64,000 nucleotides of DNA, from NCBI RefSeq assembly GCF_013004065.1, contig NZ_CP053084.1, positions 1,550,001-1,614,000 on the forward strand, read 5' to 3'. A program made the translations under genes and the position numbers. Source of the stretch: Limnobacter sp. SAORIC-580. GTDB taxonomy: Bacteria > Pseudomonadota > Gammaproteobacteria > Burkholderiales > Burkholderiaceae_B. Under the pieces are notes generated by a model. It saw nothing but the letters and a program-made list of their open reading frames with translations. It was not told the origin of the DNA and did no database searches. Below are positions 51,422-63,513 of this stretch, piece by piece (the first letter of the stretch is position 1; each line of letters begins with the position of its first letter).

Positions 51422-51744
51422 AAGAATAGCCTCAGATAAAAGTGAACCAACCTATGTACTTTTTCGGCGATTACTGACTGGAGAGCATCGCCAGTATTGG
51501 TGGGGGTCACTCTGGGTAACCCTTTTTATGTTTAATCTATTTGTCGCATAATTTGTATTATGTAAACTTTAATATTTTTGCAAGTTCTTCCACAGAAGCA
51601 AAGCGACTGTTCTATTAAAGTTGTAACGATTTTTTGCCTAAATTTGTAAAGTGATGTACTTTTCGCTTAATTTTGTAAAGAAGCATTACTTCTAGGCAAC
51701 ATTCCACACTACTCCAACCGCCAAATCTATGCAAACTTCAGAAA
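51422..51744. other. AT-rich gap with TTTGTAAAG repeats
   Basis: No convincing gene is seen. TTTGTAAAG occurs at 51643-51651 and 51672-51680, and the related TTGTAAC at 51621-51627. A GGCGAT/ATCGCC dyad lies at 51466-51492. This is the 3' flank of the KfrA-like gene and could be one edge of a mobile element. Confidence 0.4.
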
Positions 51745-52779
51745 TCAATCATGAATCTGCTTCATGGTTTTCCTGCGGCTATTTTTTGGATGTGTGATGT
51801 TCTGTTTTGCACTGAGTTGTTCTAGTTGAGCTTTAAGCTGGCCGTTTATCCTGGTTTGTTCTTCATAGCTGATGCGGATCGTTTGAAGATTTGCGGTGGT
51901 CATTTCAAGTTTTGTCTTTGCTGCGCTTAAATCTCGCCTAGATTCTTCAAGCTCCGATGCGAGTTCAAGGAGTTTGTCGTCCCGTTGTCTTAATTCATCC
52001 TCTCGGAGTTTCAGGGCGTTCGTGGCATCCTTGATTGCTTTATTTGCTGCTTGTCGTTCTCTTTCAATCTCCATTAATGCCCGGTTTTCGTGGTCTTTCA
52101 ATCTGGCCAATCCCTGTTCGTGCTCCTGTGACATTCTGTGGCTTTCAGCAATAAAGTCGTGTCTGGCTTTATCTAGTTGTTTTTTCAACTCCTCACACTG
52201 ATCTGTGGCGATTGCGAGTCGGTTCGATTCCAGCGAAAGTTTGGTTTTACCCTCACCAATCTCCTTTTGCATCTCCGATACATGAATGTCTTTCTCAGCG
52301 AGGATTTGCGCCATTTCATCGATGCGAGACTCCAAAGCTTGATTTTTGTTGTCCAGTTGTTCGATCTGCTGAGTGAAACGATTTAATTCCCTTTGGTGCT
52401 GTTCATTTTGTTCACGAGCCGTTGCGGAGCTAATTTGAGAGGCGATTCGCCAAGTCTCCTTTAGCGCTTCTGTGAACGTCGTTTTCAGCGATTCTGGCAT
52501 TTCTGGAATCTCCAGTTCTATTCTGCCCTTCTCTTTTTGCTGTGCTAAAAATTCCTGTATTGCTTTACCTGGCGTTGACATGCTCCCTTTCCTAACCAAC
52601 GCATAGAGTCTGGTTGGTGTCGGCATTATTCCATGTTGATAAAAAAGGATTGCACACGTTTTCTTGTAAATTTCCAGTGTGGACAAGCCTTGGTTCATCA
52701 ATTCAAGGATTAGCTGACGGATTTCATCATCAGAGTTTACATCGTTCATTTGCTTGTACAGAGATTGGCTAAGAGTCAT
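51745..52779 (-). CDS. KfrA-like DNA-binding coiled-coil protein
   Basis: A 344-residue protein. The N-terminal region (residues 15-100: DDEIRQLILELMNQGLSTLEIY, split at LILEL, and PTPTRLYALVRKGSMSTPGKAI) resembles the KfrA N-terminal DNA-binding domain of plasmids and islands. Residues about 110-325 are one long coiled coil rich in Glu, Lys, Arg and Leu. The C-terminal tail is basic (KNSRRKTMKQ). Such proteins often pair with tyrosine recombinases in genomic islands and may repress their own promoter. No clear ribosome binding site precedes the ATG at 52779; an ATG at 52749 is an alternative. Confidence 0.75.
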   Translation of the reverse strand: MTLSQSLYKQMNDVNSDDEIRQLILELMNQGLSTLEIYKKTCAILFYQHGIMPTPTRLYALVRKGSMSTPGKAIQEFLAQQKEKGRIELEIPEMPESLKTTFTEALKETWRIASQISSATAREQNEQHQRELNRFTQQIEQLDNKNQALESRIDEMAQILAEKDIHVSEMQKEIGEGKTKLSLESNRLAIATDQCEELKKQLDKARHDFIAESHRMSQEHEQGLARLKDHENRALMEIERERQAANKAIKDATNALKLREDELRQRDDKLLELASELEESRRDLSAAKTKLEMTTANLQTIRISYEEQTRINGQLKAQLEQLSAKQNITHPKNSRRKTMKQIHD

Positions 52780-52784
52780 ATATT

Positions 52785-52850
52785 ATTACATAATACGTAA
52801 TGTCATTACTAATTTATTGATTATTTTTGACATTACACTTATAATGTCAA
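52785..52850. promoter_or_regulatory. Divergent promoter/operator between KfrA-like gene and recombinase
   Basis: TAATGTCA appears at 52798-52805 and 52842-52849 and inverted at 52828-52835. TTGACATTA (52827-52835) and TAATGTCAA (52842-52850) form a perfect dyad with a 6-nt spacer. ATTACATAATACGTAAT (52785-52801) is a near-palindrome. A recombinase promoter TTGATT (52817-52822), 17 nt, TATAAT (52840-52845) overlaps the second dyad, so binding there would repress it. Confidence 0.6.
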
Positions 52851-52874
52851 TGTATTTGTTCATCCGAGGTTATT

Positions 52875-54056
52875 TTGAGTTTTGAGCTTATTCCCAGTGC
52901 GTTTTCAAAGAATCCAGCATTCCAAATCAGTGCGTTTGATGGTTCTACTGGAGTAAATCGCGCCTCCGGTTCGCGTCAAATCGCTGCAAACCGGGATGTA
53001 GATGCTATTTCTGCATGGCTAATGCAATTTCAAACCTCAAAAAGTACATTTGACAGTTATCGCAAGGAGGCCGAGCGGCTACTGTTGTGGTCCGTTTTGC
53101 AGCTTTCCAAACCACTTTCCTCACTCGTGTATGAAGATCTTCAGGCCTATAGGCAATTCTTGTTAGACCCACAGCCTGTAGACTTTTGGGTGTCTACACC
53201 AGGACGTCGATTTGGGCGCAACGATCCACGGTGGCGTCCCTTTGCTGGGCCTTTGTCAGCAAGTAGTCAAAGGCAGACCTTGGTAATCCTTAATTCGATG
53301 TTTAGTTGGATGGTTGAGTCCGGGTATTTGGTGGGTAACCCGCTTGCTTTGGGCAAGCGCAGATCGTCGAGTTCGCCCAAAACTGTTACACGCTATCTTG
53401 ATCCTATTCTATGGCTTGAGGTGAAGGCTTTTATTCTTGAATTGAGATCAACTGATCTGCCCAGGTACCATCGCTTGAGGTGGTTGTTTTCACTGTTTTA
53501 CCTAGGTGGTTTGCGGATTTCAGAGGTTTCACAGGGTTGTATGGGGGACTTTTATTTCCGAAGAGCCCCAGACGGTAACGATTTGTGGTGGCTAAGGGTT
53601 GTTGGTAAGGGCAATAAAGAGAGACAAATTCCTATTTCAGGAGAGTTTCTTGATGAGTTGTTGCTGTATCGATCTTATGTTCAGGTGTCTGGTCTTCCGA
53701 GTGTAGGGGAGCAAGTTCCGCTGTTTGGTTCAGCCCGTAATTTTCGGATTAGGGTTGGTAGATCTTCCATACATGGGACTGTGACTGATTTGTTTGCAGA
53801 TGTTGCGGCCAAGTTGCGCATGCAAGGAGATATGCACGCTGTACGTCGTGCATCTCAGCTTGAATCGGCTTCAGCCCATTGGCTTCGCCATACCGCTGGC
53901 TCTCACATGGCAAATTCAGGCGTTGATTTGAGAGTGATTCGGGACAATCTGGGGCATGCGTCAATCAGCACAACCTCTATTTATTTGCACACCGACGATG
54001 ATCAGCGTCACGCCGATACTTCAACGGCTCACCGCGTTGCTTGGTCAAATTCATGA
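52875..54056 (+). CDS. Tyrosine recombinase/integrase
   Basis: A 393-residue phage-type integrase. An N-terminal core-binding SAM-like domain spans about residues 40-160. The catalytic set looks complete: R214 (GGLRISEV), K245 (VVGKGNKERQIPI), H335 and R338 (AHWLRHTAG), H361 (NLGHASISTTSIY) and the nucleophile Y370. The TTG start has a GAGG site. It is divergent from the KfrA-like gene and probably integrates the surrounding accessory segment. Confidence 0.92.
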   Translation: MSFELIPSAFSKNPAFQISAFDGSTGVNRASGSRQIAANRDVDAISAWLMQFQTSKSTFDSYRKEAERLLLWSVLQLSKPLSSLVYEDLQAYRQFLLDPQPVDFWVSTPGRRFGRNDPRWRPFAGPLSASSQRQTLVILNSMFSWMVESGYLVGNPLALGKRRSSSSPKTVTRYLDPILWLEVKAFILELRSTDLPRYHRLRWLFSLFYLGGLRISEVSQGCMGDFYFRRAPDGNDLWWLRVVGKGNKERQIPISGEFLDELLLYRSYVQVSGLPSVGEQVPLFGSARNFRIRVGRSSIHGTVTDLFADVAAKLRMQGDMHAVRRASQLESASAHWLRHTAGSHMANSGVDLRVIRDNLGHASISTTSIYLHTDDDQRHADTSTAHRVAWSNS

Positions 54057-54263
54057 CTACGGCAACAACTCTTTGATGTCGCATCCGAGGGTGGCTGCAA
54101 GTTTGTAGGCTTTTTCAAGGGTGATACGCACCTCTCCCCTTTCAATCCTTCCCATATAGCTGCGATCAATTTCTGCTCTCAGTGCCAATTCATCTTGAGA
54201 AAGTCCCCTTAGTTTTCTGGCTGCGCGTACTTTGCTGCCGAATATTTTTGCCACGTCTTGCAT
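54057..54263 (-). CDS. XRE-family HTH regulator
   Basis: A 68-residue protein that is a single Cro/CI-type helix-turn-helix: FGSKVRAARKLRGLSQDELA, AEIDRSYMGRIERGEVRITLEKAYKLAATLG split at its recognition helix. Its size recalls controller (C) proteins of restriction-modification systems. It ends base-to-base against the recombinase stop and is divergent from the helicase operon. Its ribosome binding site lies inside a 7-bp-arm dyad, which suggests autoregulation. Confidence 0.85.
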   Translation of the reverse strand: MQDVAKIFGSKVRAARKLRGLSQDELALRAEIDRSYMGRIERGEVRITLEKAYKLAATLGCDIKELLP

Positions 54264-54265
54264 AG

Positions 54266-54283
54266 TTGCCTCTCTAGAGGCAA
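54266..54283. promoter_or_regulatory. Dyad over the XRE gene ribosome binding site
   Basis: TTGCCTC (54266-54272), 4 nt, GAGGCAA (54277-54283) form a perfect inverted repeat starting 3 nt before the XRE start codon. The GAGG of the XRE ribosome binding site is part of it, so it may be an operator or an RNA hairpin. Confidence 0.5.
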
Positions 54284-54296
54284 GAACTATCCAAAT

Positions 54297-54329
54297 TTGC
54301 GGCTTTAATAGCCACGGATTATAATCCGT
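54297..54329 (+). promoter_or_regulatory. Promoter with 16-bp palindromic operator for the helicase operon
   Basis: ACGGATTATAATCCGT (54314-54329) is a perfect 16-bp palindrome centred on a TATAAT box (54320-54325). TTGCGG at 54297-54302 sits 17 nt upstream as a partial -35. A protein bound to the palindrome would block RNA polymerase; the adjacent XRE protein is the obvious candidate. Confidence 0.6.
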
Positions 54330-54395
54330 TCTTTCTCAAAACCCCCTTTTTTCAGTTGCCAGTAGCCAGGGGGGAAATGACACCGATGGAGCATC

Positions 54396-54980
54396 ATGAC
54401 AAGAAGTCTTTCACCCGAGTTTTATTCAGTTCTGATTGAGGGGAATTTGAACAATTTCACAGTCATGGAATTGAGAGACGCGATCATTCGTGAATGTAAA
54501 GATGAAACAGATATGACCTTGCGTGACTATCACAAACGTGCGTACCGCGTGGTTCTAAGGCTTCTAACCGCAGGTTTGCTTGAAAAAAGCAAAGACATTT
54601 CTGAATTTGCTCGCTACAAGAAAACCCCTCTTTTCGTAGCCTCAGTGTTTAAGCAAAGAGTGACAGTTGATCGAGGGCCCAAACAGCCCAGGCAACCCAA
54701 GCAGCCCACGCAAGTCGAGCATGGGGCCCCCAGTTGGCCGGTCAAAGATCCCTGCATTCGAGACGAATTGGATCAATTGGTAAAAACTTATCAGGTCGAT
54801 TTGCTGTCTTCGATCGGTGAATCCGAGGAGTATCTGCGCTTGCACCAAACCTATCCGCAGCTTAAAGCCAAGCTCGAGCCTCATTACCTTAAGTCCAGGG
54901 ATGTCAGTTCAAAAATACTCGGAAAGATTCGCGCCATTGAAAGCGTGCTTGCTGGCATGCCGAAAGATCCCGTTTCATGA
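54396..54980 (+). CDS. Unknown protein encoded with SF2 helicase
   Basis: A 194-residue protein without a recognised family. The N-terminal 90 residues look helical and may form a winged-helix fold (MELRDAIIRECKDE, YRVVLRLLTAGLLEKSKD). A linker of PKQPRQPKQPTQ follows near residue 95. The C-terminal half is helical (DELDQLVKTYQVDLLSSIGE, LHQTYPQLKAKLEPHYLKSRD, IRAIESVLAGM). It overlaps the helicase start by 4 nt, so the two products probably work together. Confidence 0.7.
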   Translation: MTRSLSPEFYSVLIEGNLNNFTVMELRDAIIRECKDETDMTLRDYHKRAYRVVLRLLTAGLLEKSKDISEFARYKKTPLFVASVFKQRVTVDRGPKQPRQPKQPTQVEHGAPSWPVKDPCIRDELDQLVKTYQVDLLSSIGESEEYLRLHQTYPQLKAKLEPHYLKSRDVSSKILGKIRAIESVLAGMPKDPVS

Positions 54981-56371
54981 AGCTGCGTCGATGGCAATCC
55001 AACTGTCTTACGGGTGCTTTGAACTGGTTCAAAACTCAGTCACATTTCATGTGCTTGGCAACGCCTGGGTCGGGTAAAACCCGGCTATCCGCAGAACTGG
55101 CTAAAAGTCTGCTCCAAGCAAATAAAATCGATTTTGTATTGACCTTTGCACCATCAATTGAAGTTGCACAAAACACCTCAAATACTTTCACCAATGTGCT
55201 TGGACGTCGATTTGACGGGCAAATTGGTGCAATAGGCGGCGCTTACACTTACCAAAGTTTGTTATTCATTCAAGCGGATTTTTGGCAGATATTCGATTCC
55301 CATCGTGTTTTAGTGGTCTTGGATGAGGTTCATCATTGTGCTGGCAGCGATCTTTCAAACTCAAATTCCTGGGGGGAACAGGTTTTGCTGAGAATTCAAA
55401 GTAAAGCCACTTTCAGTATTGCACTTAGTGGTACGCCTTGGCGAAGTGATGACTTGCCAATCGTACTTGCCAAATACACGGATCCTGAAGGCAAGGTTCG
55501 CTGTGATTATGAGTATGGTTTGGCCGAGGCAATCCACGATGGAGTTTGCCGAAATCCAAAGCTGGTCCTCATTGATCACGATCGTATTCTCTTGACGAAT
55601 CAACAAAGCGGAATCCAGTCGTTCGAATCCTTTGCCGAGTTACTGAGCTCGAATGGCATTACCTATGACCAACTCATTCAAAATCCTCAGGCTGTTCATT
55701 TCATGCTGAATCGTGGGTGTCAAAAACTTAAGGAAATTCGCCTTACAAACCCCAATGCGGCTGGTCTTGTTGTGGCTCGATCGGTTGAGCATGCACACGT
55801 TATTGCCGCTGAGCTTTCAAATACATTCGCGCAGTCCGTGAAAGTGGTCACCTACAGAGATCACGATGCTTCGAAAACGATCGATGCATTTAGGTACTCT
55901 AATGAACAATGGATTGTTAGCGTTGGGATGATTAGCGAGGGTACTGATATTCCAAGGTTGCAAGTGTGTTGCCACCTCAGTATTGTCAAAACGGAAATGC
56001 ATTTCCGACAGGTTCTGGGTCGAATATTGCGTATGACCAATGATGTCGATAAAGATGGTTGGATGTTTGTTTTTGCTGAGCCAACTCTAGTCGAATTTGC
56101 AAATGAGCTTCACCATGAAATCCCGGAGTCTCGTGTTGTTCAATTTGATGGTTCTCGTCCACGTATAGGCGCCGAACAGAGGATTGGCAGGACTTTTGAT
56201 GCTTCAACAAAGCTCAACGACTATTCGGAAATTCGCTGCAATGATGATCTGCACCTAACGCTTCAACCAGAGATTTTCGATTCAGAACAAACGAGGTACT
56301 CCCGTACTCGGTTGGAATGGGCTGGTCAGTTTAGAGAGCAGATCATTGCAACATTCAATTCATCATTTTAG
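54977..56371 (+). CDS. Superfamily 2 DEAD/DEAH-type helicase
   Basis: A 464-residue ATPase with a complete two-domain SF2 core: a Q-like start LRRWQSNCLTGAL, Walker A ATPGSGKT (28-35), Walker B LDEVHHC (from 115), motif III SGTPWR, motif V ISEGTDIPRLQ and motif VI FRQVLGRILRM. This resembles the helicase part of type I/III restriction enzymes and of several phage-defence ATPases, but no nuclease or methylase domain is attached. It is translationally coupled to the preceding unknown gene. Confidence 0.88.
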   Translation: MKLRRWQSNCLTGALNWFKTQSHFMCLATPGSGKTRLSAELAKSLLQANKIDFVLTFAPSIEVAQNTSNTFTNVLGRRFDGQIGAIGGAYTYQSLLFIQADFWQIFDSHRVLVVLDEVHHCAGSDLSNSNSWGEQVLLRIQSKATFSIALSGTPWRSDDLPIVLAKYTDPEGKVRCDYEYGLAEAIHDGVCRNPKLVLIDHDRILLTNQQSGIQSFESFAELLSSNGITYDQLIQNPQAVHFMLNRGCQKLKEIRLTNPNAAGLVVARSVEHAHVIAAELSNTFAQSVKVVTYRDHDASKTIDAFRYSNEQWIVSVGMISEGTDIPRLQVCCHLSIVKTEMHFRQVLGRILRMTNDVDKDGWMFVFAEPTLVEFANELHHEIPESRVVQFDGSRPRIGAEQRIGRTFDASTKLNDYSEIRCNDDLHLTLQPEIFDSEQTRYSRTRLEWAGQFREQIIATFNSSF

Positions 56372-56498
56372 GGGTGGTCATGTTTTTTGTGTTGGTGAAA
56401 TCGATACCTCTTTGTGCACCCTCGCCTTCTGTTGATACGTCGATGATCTGTCGGCATGTTATTTTTACGTGAATTTTCCGTTTTGAACGAGGTGTGGA

Positions 56499-57224
56499 TT
56501 GGGCACTGTTGCACGTATAAATGAAGGTGACTGGAGTGACGGTACCTCATTGTGGCGGTATATGGACATCTATGGATTTCTGAGTCTCCTTACCGGACAA
56601 AAACTGAAGTTTACGAATCTTTCTGAATTTGAAGACGGTTTTGAAGGCCGCATGCCCTTTAACAATTCAGCAACTCTGAATATTGACTTTTCCGACGACA
56701 GCAAATGTTTCTCGAGATCTATCGACGAAGTTGTTGCCCTTACGGAAAATCTAGAAAGTATCCGCAAAAGAACATGGGTGACGAGCTGGCAGCAATCTGA
56801 CGATGAGTGCTCCTTGATGTGGCGAGTTTACGGTAGCAGACAAAACGGAGTTGCTTTAAAAACTACTGCTGGTAATTTGATTGCTGCACTTGATCCGACC
56901 AATGACTACATTGTTGGTCCGGTTAAATATATCAATTACATCCTCGATAGAGTCTCCGATGAGCAAAACTTTTTCTTTACGTTTCACAAGCAGCAAGGTT
57001 ACTTCGCTGAGCAGGAATTCCGCATCGCTTTAACCGAATCCCATGAAAGTTTTGATGACAATCCTCAGCTCATTCAGTTTGATTTGAACAAGGCCTTGGA
57101 AAAGATAGTGCTCTCTCCATGGGCAGAGAAATGGCAGTTAGATGCGTTAAAAGAAGTACTGAGATCTTTCATGTTGGATCCCAACCTGATCGGATATTCA
57201 TCGATATTGAGAGTTGGGAAATGA
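56499..57224 (+). CDS. DUF2971 family protein
   Basis: A 241-residue protein with typical DUF2971 features: LWRYMDIYGFLSLLTGQKLKFTNLSEFEDGFEG, split at the LKFTN core, then a TWVTSWQQSDDE segment and SLMWRVYGSRQNGVALKTT. The family is frequent on mobile elements and defence islands and its biochemical role is unknown. The TTG at 56499 with GAGG 6 nt upstream is the best start. It lies 127 nt after the helicase gene on the same strand, so it may belong to that operon or have its own promoter. Confidence 0.8.
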   Translation: MGTVARINEGDWSDGTSLWRYMDIYGFLSLLTGQKLKFTNLSEFEDGFEGRMPFNNSATLNIDFSDDSKCFSRSIDEVVALTENLESIRKRTWVTSWQQSDDECSLMWRVYGSRQNGVALKTTAGNLIAALDPTNDYIVGPVKYINYILDRVSDEQNFFFTFHKQQGYFAEQEFRIALTESHESFDDNPQLIQFDLNKALEKIVLSPWAEKWQLDALKEVLRSFMLDPNLIGYSSILRVGK

Positions 57225-57262
57225 TTTTTAATTGAGGGCTGACTCTCATTGTTGCCCGTAAC

Positions 57263-57450
57263 ATCTCCAGTTCTTTGATTCTAAATCAAGATTCGAATGA
57301 GGGCTCGACAATTGACCCGGTCAAATTGAACCGTTTGTTTGAATCCCTTCTTTCGCGCTGAAGAGGTACGGAGCGACACTGGGAGCAATCACGGGCTAGG
57401 CCTGCCTATTGTGGCAGCCATTGCGAAACTACATGGTGGTGAGCCACAAC
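57263..57450 (+). pseudogene. Histidine kinase C-terminal remnant, frameshifted and cut by IS66 end
   Basis: Two frames together encode the end of a HATPase domain: NEGSTIDPVKLNRLFES in one frame, then FFRAEEVRSDTGSNHGLGLP followed by IVAAIAKLHGGEP in the +1 frame. This is the F-box and G2 box of sensor kinases, closest in style to heavy-metal sensors of the CusS/CzcS kind. A one-base shift lies near 57345. The 5' part is missing, and homology stops exactly where the IS66-type end begins at 57451. Confidence 0.75.
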
Positions 57451-57475
57451 GTAAGCCCCTAGCAAACCCGTCTTG
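57451..57475. repeat. IS66-family terminal repeat (tnpC side)
   Basis: Begins GTAAGCCCCTAGCAAACC and matches the repeat at 59930-59954 at 23 of 25 positions, in the same + strand orientation. It lies just outside the end of the tnpC fragment, as expected of an IS66 right end. Confidence 0.8.
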
Positions 57476-57476
57476 A

Positions 57477-57629
57477 TTAGTTGGCGTGTTTCCAGTTATG
57501 CGGCAGCAGTTCGTTGATCCGACTGTACGGCTGCGTGGACAGTCGGTCCATCACGCCCTTCAAATACTCCAGCGGGTTAGCCCCGCATTCCGCTGAGCTG
57601 TTACCAGACTTGCCTGTAGTACAGGCGAA
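57477..57629 (-). pseudogene. tnpC: IS66 transposase (TnpC) C-terminal fragment
   Basis: About 50 codons on the minus strand ending GANPLEYLKGVMDRLSTQPY and then SRINELLPHNWKHAN before the stop, the usual C-terminus of IS66 TnpC. The frame closes near 57629, where the metal-resistance genes begin. A 15-nt palindrome GCCTGTAGTACAGGC lies at the broken edge. It is a remnant that cannot transpose alone. Confidence 0.8.
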
Positions 57630-57653: not shown

Positions 57654-58136
57654 CTACTGCGCTGTAGTGATAGCCCTCTGCTTGAAACCCGACAATATCA
57701 ATAAGCCAGCACCAATGACAATCCACACATCGGCCAAATTAAAGGCCGGCCAGTGCCAATGATTGACATAAAAGTCGAGCCAGTCGACCACAGCACCCCG
57801 AACAATTCTGTCGACGAGATTACCCACCGCACCGCCCAAGATCAGGGAATAGGCAGTCGCCTCAATGGGCCTTGGTTTCCGAACAATCAGAACTACCAGA
57901 AATACAGACGCGAAAGCTGCAATGCCGGCAAGAAATAACCTTTGCCAACCTGCCTGATCAGCCAAAAAACTGAACGCGGCACCGGGATTGAGAACATGAA
58001 CCAAATTGAAATTCTCGGCAACTGGCATTGAGTTGTGTAGAGGCAACCAAATTTCAATCACTGCTTTGGATGCCTGGTCCAACACTGCAAATAGCGTTGC
58101 AAAGGCGATCCAGTACCAAGGACGGAGGATCTTCAT
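57654..58136 (-). CDS. lspA: Lipoprotein signal peptidase, metal-resistance-associated copy
   Basis: A 160-residue aspartic peptidase of the inner membrane with four TM helices. Conserved elements: LDQASKAVIE, NPGAAFSFLA, GNLVDRIVRGAVVDWLDFY (first catalytic Asp) and FNLADVWIVIGAGLL (second). Extra lspA copies commonly travel with CadR/PbrR regulators and metal pumps on mobile elements; what they process there is unclear. It overlaps the transporter stop by 4 nt and is in one operon with it. Confidence 0.92.
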   Translation of the reverse strand: MKILRPWYWIAFATLFAVLDQASKAVIEIWLPLHNSMPVAENFNLVHVLNPGAAFSFLADQAGWQRLFLAGIAAFASVFLVVLIVRKPRPIEATAYSLILGGAVGNLVDRIVRGAVVDWLDFYVNHWHWPAFNLADVWIVIGAGLLILSGFKQRAITTAQ

Positions 58137-59185
58137 TTGAGCTGCAGGATGCGACGCGCACCGTTTAAAACGATCACACCAATGATGGTGCCAATAACAA
58201 GGTCCGGGTAAGGAGAAGCAGTAAACATTACCAGGGCACCGGCCACTATAACGCCGAGATTGGCAACCACATCGTTCGCGGAAAATATATAACTCGCTTT
58301 CATATGAACGCCGTCTTCGCGTTTGCCTGATATCAGAAGCAAACAGCTCACGTTAGCAATCAAGGCTATGACGCCCATTCCGATCATCAGGATGGACTCT
58401 GGTTCACTACCATACACAAAGCGCCGGGCAACCTCAGTCAAGGCCCCGACGGCCAAGAGTAGCTGCAACCAGCCCGCGAGATGCGCGGCGCGAGACTTCA
58501 TGCTTGCCGCACGTCCCACAGCATAAAGTGCCAAACCATACACAGCAGCATCGGCGAACATGTCAAGAGAGTCGGCGATCAAGCCAGTCGATTGAGCGAT
58601 TAGGCCCGTCGTCAACTCAATCACAAACATGAAAGCGTTAATACCGAGCAAAAGGCGCAAAGTACGCGCCTGGGCGGCATCATCAATCGCAGCGGTAGAG
58701 GCAGGCGAGGAAGTTGCCTGCTTAGACTCTCGTAAAATAGCTCCAAGCTTAAGCGATTCGAGCTTTTGCAACAACTCATTGGGCGAGCCATTGTGGGTTG
58801 CTTTAACGACCCGGTTGCTTAAATCGAACGACAGCGATTGCACGCCGGGCACATCCTGGACGGCCATTCGAATCAGATTCTCTTCGGAGGCGCAATCCAT
58901 CTTCGGTACGGAAAAGACACTCACCAGCAAGCCTGCCTCAACATTTACGCTCAACGGTTGAGTATCCAGTAAAATTGTACCTAGGTTGAGTGGCTGCAGG
59001 CGTTCCAGCAAGCGATTAGGTTCTCCCTGATGCCGGGCCTTGAGTTCTCGTCGGGACAGATCGAAGTGCAGCGACTCGATATTATCAATACTACTTAATG
59101 CCATGCGAATCAGGTTTTCTTCCGAAGGGCAATCCATCTTCGGTATAGAAAAGGTGCTCTCTTGATGATTGTTTTCAGTGGTCAT
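58133..59185 (-). CDS. Cation diffusion facilitator-type transporter with two N-terminal metal-binding-like repeats
   Basis: A 350-residue protein. Residues about 11-80 and 90-155 are two HMA-like repeats, each with PKMDC(P/A)SEENLIRMA in place of the usual MxCxxC. The membrane part (from about residue 178) shows the CDF sites GLIADSLDMFADA and KASYIFSANDVVANLGVI, with roughly six TM helices. Export of Cd, Zn, Pb or Co is likely given the adjacent CadR-type regulator. The protein ends after the last helix without the cytoplasmic domain typical of many CDFs. Confidence 0.85.
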   Translation of the reverse strand: MTTENNHQESTFSIPKMDCPSEENLIRMALSSIDNIESLHFDLSRRELKARHQGEPNRLLERLQPLNLGTILLDTQPLSVNVEAGLLVSVFSVPKMDCASEENLIRMAVQDVPGVQSLSFDLSNRVVKATHNGSPNELLQKLESLKLGAILRESKQATSSPASTAAIDDAAQARTLRLLLGINAFMFVIELTTGLIAQSTGLIADSLDMFADAAVYGLALYAVGRAASMKSRAAHLAGWLQLLLAVGALTEVARRFVYGSEPESILMIGMGVIALIANVSCLLLISGKREDGVHMKASYIFSANDVVANLGVIVAGALVMFTASPYPDLVIGTIIGVIVLNGARRILQLK

Positions 59186-59213
59186 GTGGCGACTTAAGAA
59201 TTCAGGATATAAC

Positions 59214-59244
59214 GATGCTAAACCCTATAGTTAGTATAAAGTCA
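59214..59244 (-). promoter_or_regulatory. MerR-family-type promoter of the transporter-lspA operon (19-bp spacer)
   Basis: On the minus strand TTGACT (59244-59239) and TAGCAT (59219-59214) are separated by 19 nt containing ACTATAGGGT. The overlong spacer is typical of promoters activated by MerR-family proteins. The divergent cadR-like gene starts 12 nt away. Confidence 0.7.
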
Positions 59245-59255
59245 ATGGAGGCGGG

Positions 59256-59678
59256 ATGAAGATCGGAGATTTAGCAAAAGCCGCCGGTTGCCAGCCCGTA
59301 ACGATCCGCTTTTATGAGCGAAAGGGCCTGTTGGGCAACGCAACAAGAACCGAATCAAACTACAGGGTCTATGGTTTGCAAGCTCTAGAGCGACTGGCTT
59401 TCATTCGCAACTGCCGGGCATTGGGGTTGACATTGCGGGAAATCGCCAGACTCATCGCGATCCAAGACGATGCTGGCACGCCATGTCATGAAGTCAACGA
59501 CTGCTTGGACAAGCACTTAGCTGACGCGCGCCTTCAAATGCAGAAACTGAAATTGCTGGAAAAGGATCTCACTCGGCTGCGTAACCGATGCTTAAATCCC
59601 GGTATGTCAGCCGAATGTGGCGTATTAAGCGAGCTGACAGCAAAAAGTCAGATGGTAGCGCTTCGCACCCGAATTTAA
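59256..59678 (+). CDS. cadR: MerR-family metal regulator, CadR/PbrR type
   Basis: A 140-residue activator. The HTH is MKIGDLAKAAGCQPVTIRFY and a dimerisation helix follows. Cysteines C77 (TPCHEV), C112 (RCLNPG) and C121 (ECGVL) correspond to the metal-binding residues of CadR and PbrR, so Cd or Pb is the likely signal. It is divergent from the transporter-lspA operon and shares a 19-bp-spacer promoter region with it. The GGAGG lies 5 nt before the ATG. Confidence 0.88.
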   Translation: MKIGDLAKAAGCQPVTIRFYERKGLLGNATRTESNYRVYGLQALERLAFIRNCRALGLTLREIARLIAIQDDAGTPCHEVNDCLDKHLADARLQMQKLKLLEKDLTRLRNRCLNPGMSAECGVLSELTAKSQMVALRTRI

Positions 59679-59808
59679 GTGGTGTTTCAGGTCGAGAAAA
59701 CAGGATAAACGCGGTCCATCGCTTGGCCCAAGTTCATTAAAGGCGAAACCACTCCAACAGCGCACTTGCAAACATTTTGCGTCAAACCTTCAAACTAGAT
59801 TTGCGAAT

Positions 59809-59929
59809 ATGAGCCGACTGATCTTCATCATTGAATCCAACCTTGTCTGGTTTGTGATTGGAATTGCATTACTGGGGTTATTGGTCCCAGCATCGGGCCA
59901 GTTTCTGGAGCCCGCAATCGGACTAATGC
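59809..59929 (+). pseudogene. Truncated membrane transporter (symporter-like) N-terminus, cut by IS66 end
   Basis: An ATG-led frame reads MSRLIFIIESNLVWFVIGIA and then LLGLLVPASGQFLEPAIGLM before running into the IS66 terminal repeat at 59930. The pattern resembles the first helix of sodium/bile-acid-type symporters, but the fragment is short and identity is tentative. The rest of the gene is not in the window. Confidence 0.5.
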
Positions 59930-60011
59930 GTAAGCCCCCAGCAAACCCATCTTGTTTTGAGTTGCTAGTTTTTGGTTAACTCTACTCCACTAATTTTTTG
60001 GTGGAGTAGTC

Positions 60012-60398
60012 ATGACTGAGTTGGTTGTTAAACGCGGACGATCCCGACGCACACACAGTGCGCAGTTCAAACAAGAGGCTGTTGATCAGTGCACCAGGCC
60101 AGGCATGTCACTGGCCAATGTGGCCAGGCAGCATGAGTTACACCCCAGTTTGCTGGCACGTTGGGTCAAAGAGCGAACCGAGCCAGCAAGAATGACAATG
60201 TCATCGCAGTCTTCATTGGTGCCCCAGTTTGTTCCTCTGCATGTCGAGTCAGCACAGCGTGCCGAACTGCCGAGATCAACAACGTTGTCGAGCAAGATCG
60301 AAGCCAATATTGATCGCGCAGATCTGCGCATCGCATTCAAAGTCGATCCATCGCAAATGGTTGAACTGGGCCAGGTACTGCGCGAGGTGTTGCGTTGA
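60012..60398 (+). CDS. tnpA: IS66 accessory protein TnpA
   Basis: A 128-residue IS66 Orf1 with a helix-turn-helix of transposase type: RTHSAQFKQEAVDQCTRPGM, followed by SLANVARQHELHPSLLARWV. The C-terminal third contains RIAFKVDPSQMVELGQVLREV. It is intact and overlaps tnpB by 4 nt, but without TnpB and TnpC it cannot drive transposition on its own. Confidence 0.88.
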   Translation: MTELVVKRGRSRRTHSAQFKQEAVDQCTRPGMSLANVARQHELHPSLLARWVKERTEPARMTMSSQSSLVPQFVPLHVESAQRAELPRSTTLSSKIEANIDRADLRIAFKVDPSQMVELGQVLREVLR

Positions 60399-60434
60399 TC
60401 CGTGTGGACGCAATCTGGATGAGCACCGCACCAT
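60395..60434 (+). pseudogene. tnpB: IS66 TnpB stump
   Basis: The TTG start overlapping tnpA gives MIRVDAIWMSTAP, the usual opening of IS66 TnpB. Homology ends at 60434, where the transposon end begins, so the gene is interrupted by insertion. Confidence 0.8.
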
Positions 60435-60472
60435 GGGGGCACCTCAGAAAACGGAAAATAAAGCACGCTAAG
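60435..60472. repeat. 38-bp terminal inverted repeat of a Tn21-type transposon
   Basis: It starts GGGGGCACCTCAGAAAACGG and ends GCACGCTAAG. It follows the Tn21-subgroup end sequence, including the ACGGAAAATAAAGCACGCTAAG-type inner part (60451-60472). The merR stop codon lies within its inner edge, as in Tn21 and Tn501. Confidence 0.9.
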
Positions 60473-60902
60473 GCATAGCTGACCTTGCCAGGCCTGCTTC
60501 GCCCTGTAGTGACGCGATCAACGGGCAGGAAACATTCCCCTTTCGTGCATGGCAGGCGCACACGAGTTCAGACAGCACGGTTTCCATGCGCGCCAAGTCG
60601 GCCATCTTCTCGCGCACGTCCTTGAGCTTGTGTTCGGCCAGGCTGCTGGCCTCCTCGCAGTGGGTGCCATCGTCGAGCCGCAACAGCTCGGCAATCTCGT
60701 CCAGACTGAACCCCAGCCGCTGTGCCGATTTCACGAATTTCACCCGAACCACGTCCGCCTCCCCATAGCGGCGGATGCTGCCGTAAGGCTTGTCCGGTTC
60801 CGGCAACAGGCCCTTGCGCTGATAGAAGCGGATTGTCTCCACGTTGACCCCGGCCGCCTTGGCAAAAACGCCAATGGTCAGGTTTTCCAAATTATTTTCC
60901 AT
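60468..60902 (-). CDS. merR: Mercury resistance regulator MerR
   Basis: A 144-residue activator-repressor of the mer operon. The HTH is [20 protein letters not shown]. The mercury ligands C82, C117 and C126 are all present at the classical positions. It binds the dyad in the divergent promoter and untwists it when Hg(II) is bound. The ATG at 60902 gives the family start [11 protein letters not shown]; the longer open frame overlaps merT. Confidence 0.97.
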
Positions 60903-60907
60903 ATCGC

Positions 60908-60938
60908 TTGACTCCGTACATGAGTACGGAAGTAAGGT
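60908..60938 (+). promoter_or_regulatory. merTPA promoter with MerR operator
   Basis: TTGACT (60908-60913), a 19-nt spacer and TAAGGT (60933-60938). The spacer contains the MerR dyad TCCGTAC-ATGA-GTACGGA (60913-60930), the classical arrangement of Tn21 and Tn501. Confidence 0.93.
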
Positions 60939-60973
60939 TACGCTATCCAATCCAAATTCAAAAGGGCCAACGT

Positions 60974-61324
60974 ATGTCTGAACCACAAAACGGGCGCGGT
61001 GCGCTCTTCGCCGGCGGGCTGGCCGCCATTCTTGCATCGACCTGCTGCCTGGGGCCGCTAGTACTGGTCGGCTTGGGCTTCTCCGGTGCTTGGATCGGCA
61101 ACCTGACGGTGCTGGAACCCTATCGACCGTTGTTCATCGGCGCGGCGCTAGTGGCGCTGTTCTTCGCCTGGAAGCGGATTTACCGGCCCGTGCAGGCATG
61201 CAAGCCAGGTGAGGTCTGCGCGATTCCGCAGGTGCGCGCCACCTACAAGCTGATTTTCTGGATCGTGGCCGTGCTGGTCCTGGTCGCGCTTGGATTTCCC
61301 TATGTCGTTCCATTTTTCTATTAA
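60974..61324 (+). CDS. merT: Mercuric ion transporter MerT
   Basis: A 116-residue inner membrane protein with three TM helices that imports Hg(II). The cysteine pair C24-C25 (STCCLGPLV) in helix 1 and C76 and C82 (CKPGEVC) on the cytoplasmic loop form the relay. Length equals Tn21/Tn501 MerT. The ATG at 60974 starts [10 protein letters not shown]. Confidence 0.97.
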
Positions 61325-61337
61325 CCAGGAGTTCATC

Positions 61338-61616
61338 ATGAAGAAACTGTTTGCCTCCCTTGCCCTTGCCGCCACCTTCGCTGCCCCTGCTTGGGCCGCC
61401 ACACAGACGGTCACCTTGACCGTTCCCGGCATGACCTGCGCAACTTGCCCGATCACCGTGAAGAAGGCACTGAGCAAGGTAGAGGGCGTTAGCAAGATCG
61501 AGGTCGACTACGCAACCAAGCTGGCTGTTGTGACGTTCGACGATGCGAAAACCAGCGTCCAGGCGCTGAGCAAGGCGACGACGGACGTAGGCTACCCGTC
61601 TGAACTGAAGAAATAA
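61338..61616 (+). CDS. merP: Periplasmic mercury-binding protein MerP
   Basis: A 92-residue protein with a signal peptide (cut near AWA, residue 20) and one HMA domain, GMTCATCPITVKKALSKVEG, with Hg ligands C34 and C37. It hands mercury to MerT. An AGGAG site lies upstream, 13 nt after merT. Confidence 0.97.
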   Translation: MKKLFASLALAATFAAPAWAATQTVTLTVPGMTCATCPITVKKALSKVEGVSKIEVDYATKLAVVTFDDAKTSVQALSKATTDVGYPSELKK

Positions 61617-61650
61617 GGCAGCAAATGACGGCAGCGTCGCCAGAACCTAG

Positions 61651-63513
<1,863 letters not shown>

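Follow-up and report, generated by a model that had tools for sequence, protein, structure and literature searches.

An XRE regulator, a VspR-family protein and a RadD/XPB-like helicase recur together in unrelated mobile elements, often beside phage-defence genes

Introduction

On the Vibrio cholerae island VSP-1, VspR is a negative transcription regulator of the cyclic-oligonucleotide-based anti-phage signalling system (CBASS) (PMC10653837; the papers cited by PMC number are represented here by portions of their text, and statements about them hold for those portions). According to a review, zygotic induction follows when the CRISPR-associated transposons (CASTs) of type I-F3, which are regulated by the Xre proteins RtaC and RtbC, enter a new cell (PMC11406308). 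A 2025 reporter study of VpaI-7, an I-F3a CAST of V. parahaemolyticus, shows that VpxR activates its own promoter and represses that of the divergent gene VPA1392 via a box overlapping the TATAAT -10 element; the VPA1392 promoter is about 24-fold lower when VpxR is overproduced and is repressed by baseline VpxR too, while VPA1392 itself is called hypothetical, with its membership in the CAST unknown (PMC12150760). Xre proteins of Shewanella CASTs cluster with C.Csp231I (PMC12452197), a controller (C) protein of a restriction-modification (R-M) system, which is reported to bind two 15-bp sites, CTAAGN5CTTAG, with 18 bp between them (PMC4321490). Here we analyze a locus of Limnobacter sp. SAORIC-580 in which an XRE gene, a VspR-family gene and a helicase gene (the trio) stand together, within a stretch of 64,000 nucleotides (contig NZ_CP053084.1, positions 1,550,001 to 1,614,000; the window) whose numbering is used throughout.

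A preliminary description of positions 54057-57224, made from the sequence alone, had proposed an XRE-controlled operon of an unrecognised 194-residue gene, a superfamily 2 (SF2) helicase gene and a DUF2971 gene next to a recombinase, possibly an undescribed defence system. The comparison of related loci shows that the window holds one copy of a conserved mobile module, which consists of a C-protein-like XRE regulator, a VspR-family protein and a RadD/XPB-like helicase.

Results

Conservation and pairing of the trio

The proposed gene layout was correct in all coordinates (Table 1): the 68-residue XRE gene is divergent from the 194-residue open reading frame (ORF), the tyrosine integrase gene lies just upstream, and the ORF overlaps the helicase gene by 4 nt (ATGA, 54977-54980). 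ORFs were called mechanically in fetched stretches of more than 4 kb (L-numbers denote fetched stretches or loci, G-numbers genomes). By script, a VspR-like gene was counted at 127 loci, one of them that of the window. The helicase adjoins this gene in 95 of the 104 loci found via the VspR-like gene itself, or in 96 with L042, whose over-long start hid it from the script. A previous tally, which left out the window and set a stricter limit on distance, had given 114 of 126. Two of the 25 stretches found via the helicase, L037 and L065, show no VspR-like gene. The set includes duplicates (L059 and L163 are same-length records with the same gene order, L130 and L131 two like copies in one genome), and its Vibrio sample comprises 80 stretches and four earlier ones out of 132 typed places, taken mostly from the best-scoring downward, with second pieces of split matches dropped.

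Protein distances were correlated for 90 non-redundant loci out of 109 with all three genes and a helicase of more than 400 aa; loci lacking a full-length helicase or a called XRE had been dropped beforehand. The correlation was 0.944 for VspR-like proteins and helicases, 0.691 for XRE and helicases and 0.708 for XRE and VspR-like proteins, the largest value in 999 permutations being 0.201. Therefore, the VspR-like gene and the helicase travel as a pair, and the XRE gene is swapped more often.

By profile searches, the ORF is present in 13 of 398 genomes of the phylum (its own and twelve others, all of the same class), in five of 16 genomes of its own genus (its own included, one copy cut at a contig end), in none of 84 other relatives, and in 91 of 196 Vibrio genomes, with up to six genes per genome. 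The 194-aa protein also finds ten plasmid records, nine of which were examined (H3, a second Pseudomonas koreensis plasmid, was left out): all nine have an XRE-type gene divergent to the ORF, and eight (all but L006) have a helicase gene after the ORF, cut short in L002 and split in L003. The helicase finds 45 plasmid records, of which 13 further ones were examined, and a phage collection contained one distant helicase relative with 30% identity.

The 194-aa protein belongs to the VspR family

The protein considered unrecognised indeed has no match up to E = 1 in Pfam, NCBIfam and PADLOC, and PHROG yields only values of 0.2-0.3; a search of solved structures with the sequences of the family gave MecI at 0.27 only. 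However, a profile with the window protein as its first row finds the VspR-like protein of L145, a locus of the VSP-1 type, at 4.9e-51; since the profile also held distant Vibrio members, this link is by profile and not pairwise. A plasmid homologue is annotated vspR_2, to which the L145 protein is 60% and the window protein 23% identical (alignment A2), and the precomputed Pfam domains PF27192 and PF27213 are listed for relatives in a large protein collection.

In the predicted structure (pLDDT 82, pTM 0.45), a linker of low confidence joins a winged helix to a two-helix hairpin. PadR regulators are its best, though weak, Foldseek match among solved structures (8e-4), and nothing at or below 0.001 was found in a viral fold library. 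PadR-type regulators likewise combine a winged helix with a helical C-terminal part, but whole-chain TM-scores are about 0.26-0.33, and the 194-aa protein has about 27 low-confidence linker residues. By profile, genomic setting and structure model, it is a VspR-family winged-helix protein. DNA binding and repression of island genes, as reported for V. cholerae VspR (PMC10653837), may apply to it as well, given its winged-helix model. A role as a nuclease or effector was considered and rejected: no such family was matched, and the model is a winged helix with a helical hairpin.

The XRE regulator and two classes of putative operators

The window XRE has the HTH_3 fold and the size of a C protein, and its best natural matches in the PDB are C.AhdI (6e-10) and C.BclI (1.3e-6); two designed repeat proteins outrank them in this search through summed weak repeats. 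It thus resembles the R-M controllers C.AhdI, C.BclI and C.Csp231I in size, fold family and palindromic sites, but no restriction enzyme or methylase adjoins it: apart from similarity to HTH and helicase domains, nothing in the six genes of 51745-57224 matched an endonuclease domain in Pfam, PADLOC, NCBIfam or PHROG. A further difference is that the published CAST relative represses the divergent gene. The window XRE is not the C protein of an R-M system but may work in a C-protein-like manner.

Two kinds of sites were scored near the start of the VspR-like gene: P1, the 14-bp core CGGATTATAATCCG, which contains TATAAT, with at most one mismatch, and P2, CTTAG-N5-CTAAG or CTAAG-N5-CTTAG, a site of the C.Csp231I type. 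The perfect 16-bp palindrome over the -10 box, noticed previously, holds the P1 core, which is conserved at 34 of the 127 loci. The site matches the class of the regulator. P1 occurs in 33 of 36 loci with a short XRE (60-92 aa) and P2 in 85 of 88 loci with a long XRE (95-130 aa); the lone long-XRE locus with P1, L009, has an over-called XRE start (annotated as 77 aa), and P2 is also present at three loci without a called XRE. The long XRE of L059 matches the Csp231I C protein at 4.3e-16, and P2 pairs repeat at 34 bp, that is, with a 19-bp gap. A generic promoter scan with a stricter rule found no sigma-70-like site in 54000-57600.

With two mismatches allowed, the window contains a single P1 core (mean 0.01 in 100 shuffles), and the exact form is found at one place in the 3.3-Mb genome. 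Six of the 27 whole genomes examined have an exact core, at one place each: five of the own genus, all holding the trio or its left part, and G146, with a trio of the P1 class. As P1 is found at one place per genome, the regulon of the window XRE looks local. A general control of cargo by P1-class XREs is not supported, as there is no second P1 (at most one mismatch) in the stretches of the 34 P1 loci and no other exact P1 in the six genomes having one.

All ten long-XRE stretches that include tniQ within range (L007, L041, L059, L107, L144, L160, L172, L177, L184 and a duplicate) have an additional P2 site at 10-55 nt from the called start of tniQ; in L041 this site falls within the called ORF, which was probably given too early a start. 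This recurrence suggests, on sequence grounds, that in long-XRE CASTs the XRE also controls the tniQ-cas operon. Extra P2 sites at +133 in L064 and L126 fall where the gene start was probably over-called.

A second inverted repeat, TTGCCTCTCTAGAGGCAA, occupies 54266-54283 immediately before the XRE start; it is identical in L053 and L054 and slightly altered in L055.

The helicase

The helicase core is closest to RadD structures (1.8e-17), followed by XPB-Bax1, LlaBIII and SauUSI. It shares core fold and motifs with the RadD/XPB SF2 helicases; however, with 464 aa it scores 53.8 bits against the NCBIfam RadD equivalog cut-off of 720, and residues 383-442 of its tail are modelled with very low confidence. 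The Walker A lysine identified earlier, Lys34, is invariant in 32 aligned helicases, and all 109 helicases of more than 400 aa have motifs I, II, III and VI. In PADLOC 2.0 the helicase has partial matches, the best being PbeA (3e-12), and its 194-aa partner none.

A short C-terminal motif around G-x-F-R (56312-56368) follows the variable, low-confidence stretch; it is conserved and might serve for docking.

Mobile-element and defence settings

Recombination machinery near the 127 loci is of several kinds: CAST/Tn7 at 39, INTq-type at 23, GMT at nine and KfrA-integrase at four, one locus falling in two classes; 53 stretches carry none of these labels. The helicase is present in 33 of the 39 CAST/Tn7-labelled stretches, L042 included. 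Of 54 tniQ places in Vibrio, 49 have a VspR-like gene at a distance of up to 35 kb (places typed by tniQ alone, with three second pieces of split tniQ dropped); G614, G529:C2 and G503 have none nearby, and G505 and G531 carry the two genes on separate contigs. All eight strong GmtY places and seven of ten VSP-1-like Q3 places have a VspR-like gene within 25 kb, the expectation for random places being about 0.7% (three second pieces of split Q3 dropped).

Two arrangements illustrate these settings. L183 and L186 have the order tniQ, cas8, two further genes, XRE, VspR-like gene, helicase, tnsC, tnsB, tnsA, with P1 present. As in such I-F3 CASTs with their Xre regulators (RtaC/RtbC; VpxR in VpaI-7), the trio has an XRE beside a VspR-like gene, mostly a helicase, and a site over the -10 box, and the short-XRE/P1 and long-XRE/P2 classes are shared. 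In contrast to I-F3 CASTs, there is no CAST gene at the window locus, and queries with TnsA, TnsB, TnsC, TniQ and Cas8 labelled no gene in its sister loci, L053-L056. The CAST literature on Xre regulators, in the portions at hand, treats the XRE alone.

The second arrangement, VSP-1-like L145, reads 532-aa dCMP-deaminase-domain protein, XRE, VspR-like protein, CapV, DncV, Cap2, JAB-domain protein. Going by gene order and domains, we take the first and the last of these to be AvcD and Cap3. The layout fits VSP-1 as described (PMC10653837, PMC12409362). With the VspR (VC0177)/VC0176 locus of VSP-1 the trio shares an XRE divergent from a VspR-family gene, defence genes beside it and an integrase island; L145 has no helicase, while the window has a helicase and no CBASS. 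In L158, a helicase gene separates the VspR-like gene from CBASS genes.

An enrichment near known defence genes, suggested as a check, was observed in Vibrio. At 1e-20, 112 proteins neighboring the module matched 262 PADLOC families and 125 control proteins matched three. The neighbors (180-1200 aa) were sampled from 292 proteins at 44 non-CAST Vibrio loci, 42 of which are represented; the controls were 125 of 192 proteins from 20 stretches in genomes of the same set, and their three families were matched by four, one and one proteins. The figure of 262 counts families, not proteins, and in many cases, chiefly type I methylases, several overlapping models recognise the same protein; among the 25 families listed, the largest matched six of the 112 neighbors each. 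Pfam labels ordinary genes among the same neighbors too, for example transporters.

The Limnobacter element and its cargo

The features of the locus are listed in Table 1.

Table 1. Genes and sites of the trio and the surrounding element in the window
Feature	Position	Strand	Basis
KfrA_N-domain coiled-coil protein of the local integrative element	51745..52779	-	PF11740 2.2e-11; adjoins the integrase in L053-L056 too
XerC/D-like tyrosine recombinase (integrase) of the local element	52875..54056	+	PF00589 7.4e-20; TIGR02224 7.5e-28, below its cut-off
XRE regulator resembling R-M controller (C) proteins, 68 aa	54057..54263	-	HTH_3 1.4e-15; PADLOC Control_protein 2.9e-14
-35-like TTGCGG, 17 nt upstream of TATAAT	54297..54302	+	read off the sequence; same spacing at many other P1 loci
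16-bp perfect palindrome ACGGATTATAATCCGT over the -10 box, putative operator P1	54314..54329	.	sequence and conservation
TATAAT -10 box, inside the palindrome	54320..54325	+	read off the sequence
VspR-family protein, 194 aa: winged helix ~1-90, disordered 91-117, helical hairpin 119-186	54396..54980	+	profile search, L145, structure model
RadD/XPB-like SF2 helicase, 464 aa, partner of the VspR-like gene	54977..56371	+	ResIII 2.4e-13, Helicase_C 8.5e-7
DUF2971-like gene, 241 aa, TTG start, local cargo	56499..57224	+	PADLOC PDC-S31, phrog_34615

The window genes in 51745-57224 are those for the KfrA_N protein, the integrase, the trio and the DUF2971-like protein. The element made of the KfrA_N gene, integrase and trio is present in five of 16 genomes of the genus, in one of them cut at a contig end, and its integrase occurs in five copies of 92-100% identity within the genus, the own copy included. 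G410 matches the window up to 52842, where its contig ends, and for this reason may hold another, unassembled copy. Comparison of sister genomes places the left edge near 51535-51617; in four genomes without the trio (L203, L204, L206 and L208) the match ends at 51575-51617. A chemoreceptor gene immediately precedes the element in the window and in L054; about 4 kb of other DNA separates the two in L055, and about 7 kb in L056.

The interval 51535-51617 behind the chemoreceptor gene appears as an insertion hotspot. In the intervening ~7 kb of L056, a 364-aa product resembles, by eye, the Zot protein of filamentous phages.

The slot downstream of the helicase holds the DUF2971 gene in the window and L053, the same gene split in two in L054, and RND efflux genes (PF00873) in L055. 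The DUF2971 label itself was partly upheld: Pfam scores 20.8 bits, under the cut-off of 22, while PADLOC PDC-S31 (2.6e-14) and phrog_34615 (1.1e-21) match; among solved structures nothing below 0.2 was found by sequence. The gene is labelled at three of the 127 loci (window, L053 and L054) and at none of the other 124, as judged by single-sequence phmmer, which could miss distant forms. Of the proposed three-gene co-occurrence, the pairing of VspR-like gene and helicase was thus borne out, and the DUF2971 gene did not follow. Its place in the operon is doubtful, given the 127-nt gap behind the helicase gene and the other genes in the slot of L055. DUF2971 was rejected as a core part and is, by locus comparison, local passenger cargo. 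No paper pairing 'DUF2971' with 'defence' was found in the literature searched, which mostly excludes subscription journals. A second DUF2971 gene of the same genome (L001, G000:C1:2152324-2152545), above the Pfam cut-off, lies far from the trio.

Further downstream in the genus there are genes resembling, by eye, copper or mercury resistance, so that the window's own company does not look like defence; mostly it looks, by eye, like metal resistance.

Short blocks within 57228-57442 have matches around L053-L055, but at places apart from one another, which gives the impression that a metal-resistance island beside the element has been partly lost from the window. Behind the element, 57654-63513 contains lspA; two MerR-type genes, a cation transporter gene and mer genes, a MerA-like ORF among them, are also recognisable there by eye.

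Discussion

We favor the interpretation, to which we give an even chance, that the trio is an arrival-timed regulatory or establishment module of mobile islands and not a stand-alone defence system. Control by the XRE, as supposed in the preliminary description, is likely: the operator-like site fits the XRE class, and the published CAST relative represses a divergent gene. Since the gene order of L183 and L186 matches that of VpaI-7, with P1 present, VPA1392 can be taken as a VspR-like gene and the window XRE as acting like VpxR. By this analogy, the XRE would bind the palindrome on the -10 box, shut off the vspR-helicase promoter and support its own divergent promoter. Because a naive recipient holds no XRE, arrival would cause a burst of VspR-like protein and helicase, followed by self-shutdown. 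During the burst, the VspR-like protein would bind sites of the incoming element and the helicase would serve as an ATP-driven DNA motor, so that the pair would control element genes or DNA, by cargo repression or by help with integration or repair, until establishment. Direct support for the control step by a VspR-like protein comes from one case, VspR on the VSP-1 CBASS locus of V. cholerae.

Several observations weigh against an arrival-timed module. For the window copy, the entry burst and cargo sites of the VspR-like protein are predictions, and VPA1392 is assigned by gene order. In V. cholerae, loss of vspR leaves the CBASS-dependent drug sensitivity unchanged (PMC10653837), and baseline VpxR has no effect on the atypical CRISPR array (PMC12150760); three I-F3a stretches have no second P1 within one mismatch, though a somewhat different box is reported at that array (PMC12150760). 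Neither P1 nor P2 is found at L045-L048 and L070 (three short-XRE and two long-XRE loci), and L049, L122 and L147 have further P2 sites for which we see no explanation. Nor is the module universal, a VspR-like gene being near five of 18 weaker GmtY-like and three of 20 L137-like Q3 places. The helicase can be dispensable, because the script did not find it next door at eight loci (L006, L144, L145, L172, L175, L176, L177 and L184). Eight integrases of 49-53% identity in other genera all sit in genomes without a VspR-like match, and the trio therefore looks acquired by this element. Finally, a rich company of defence genes is also what a defence system would show.

Indeed, the VspR-like protein and the helicase might constitute a two-gene anti-phage or anti-plasmid system, in which the winged helix recognises invading DNA and recruits the helicase, the XRE keeping a costly pair low as C proteins do in R-M systems; we consider this unlikely, yet a serious candidate. 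The 262 PADLOC families against three, the tight pairing with intact motor motifs, the patchy occurrence (five of 16 genomes of the genus, 91 of 196 in Vibrio) and a fold near RadD, XPB and the ATP-dependent restriction enzymes LlaBIII and SauUSI speak for it, but no nuclease or effector domain was matched in the 194-aa protein, which also has no PADLOC match, the helicase shows helicase-domain similarity only, and there are loci without it. Moreover, the near-constant presence by tniQ and strong GmtY places would be unusual for exchangeable cargo, and VspR is reported as a transcription regulator (PMC10653837). Of the defence system suggested previously, what stands is that related loci lie amid defence genes; nothing found shows that the pair itself blocks phage.

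The proximity to four kinds of recombination machinery (CAST/Tn7, INTq-type, GMT and KfrA-integrase), the RadD-like fold and the P2 site before tniQ would also suit an accessory of transposition or integration, whose helicase repairs or remodels insertion DNA and whose VspR-like protein targets it to element ends. This seems quite improbable, as 53 of 127 stretches carry no such labels and six of 39 CAST/Tn7 loci lack the helicase. The E. coli constructs of VpaCAST and VchCAST reportedly lack the VspR-like/helicase pair. Both transposons are reported to work in E. coli (PMC12150760). A three-gene system of 194-aa protein, helicase and DUF2971 would explain why the genes adjoin in the window, L053 and, with DUF2971 split, L054; it is largely refuted by the absence of the label, in single-sequence searches, from 124 loci and by the efflux genes of L055, and we regard it as very improbable.

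The arrival-timed interpretation can be extended. The VspR-like protein and the helicase could form one C-protein-timed machine, adopted by unrelated islands (I-F3 CASTs, GMT islands, VSP-type islands, the KfrA-integrase element and plasmids), which silences or remodels island genes on entry and of which V. cholerae VspR and the CAST Xre proteins are fragments studied apart; we see this as possible but rather doubtful. No description of the trio was found in the literature searched (VspR, GMT, VSP-1, CAST Xre and Tn7 cargo), from which subscription papers are mostly missing, so that absence is unproven; the portions available of PMC10653837, PMC12150760, PMC12452197, PMC11406308, PMC8649781, PMC10293859 and PMC12409362 contain none.

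In summary, the trio is common to unrelated mobile elements, often by phage-defence genes, and may help them settle in a new bacterium. It joins seemingly separate work on VspR and CBASS of VSP-1, on the Xre regulators of CASTs and on GMT islands, and the VspR-like gene at 49 of 54 Vibrio tniQ places makes the membership of VPA1392 in the CAST directly testable. If the interpretation is true, many defence-carrying islands would share one switch that sets when a newly arrived island gets expressed.

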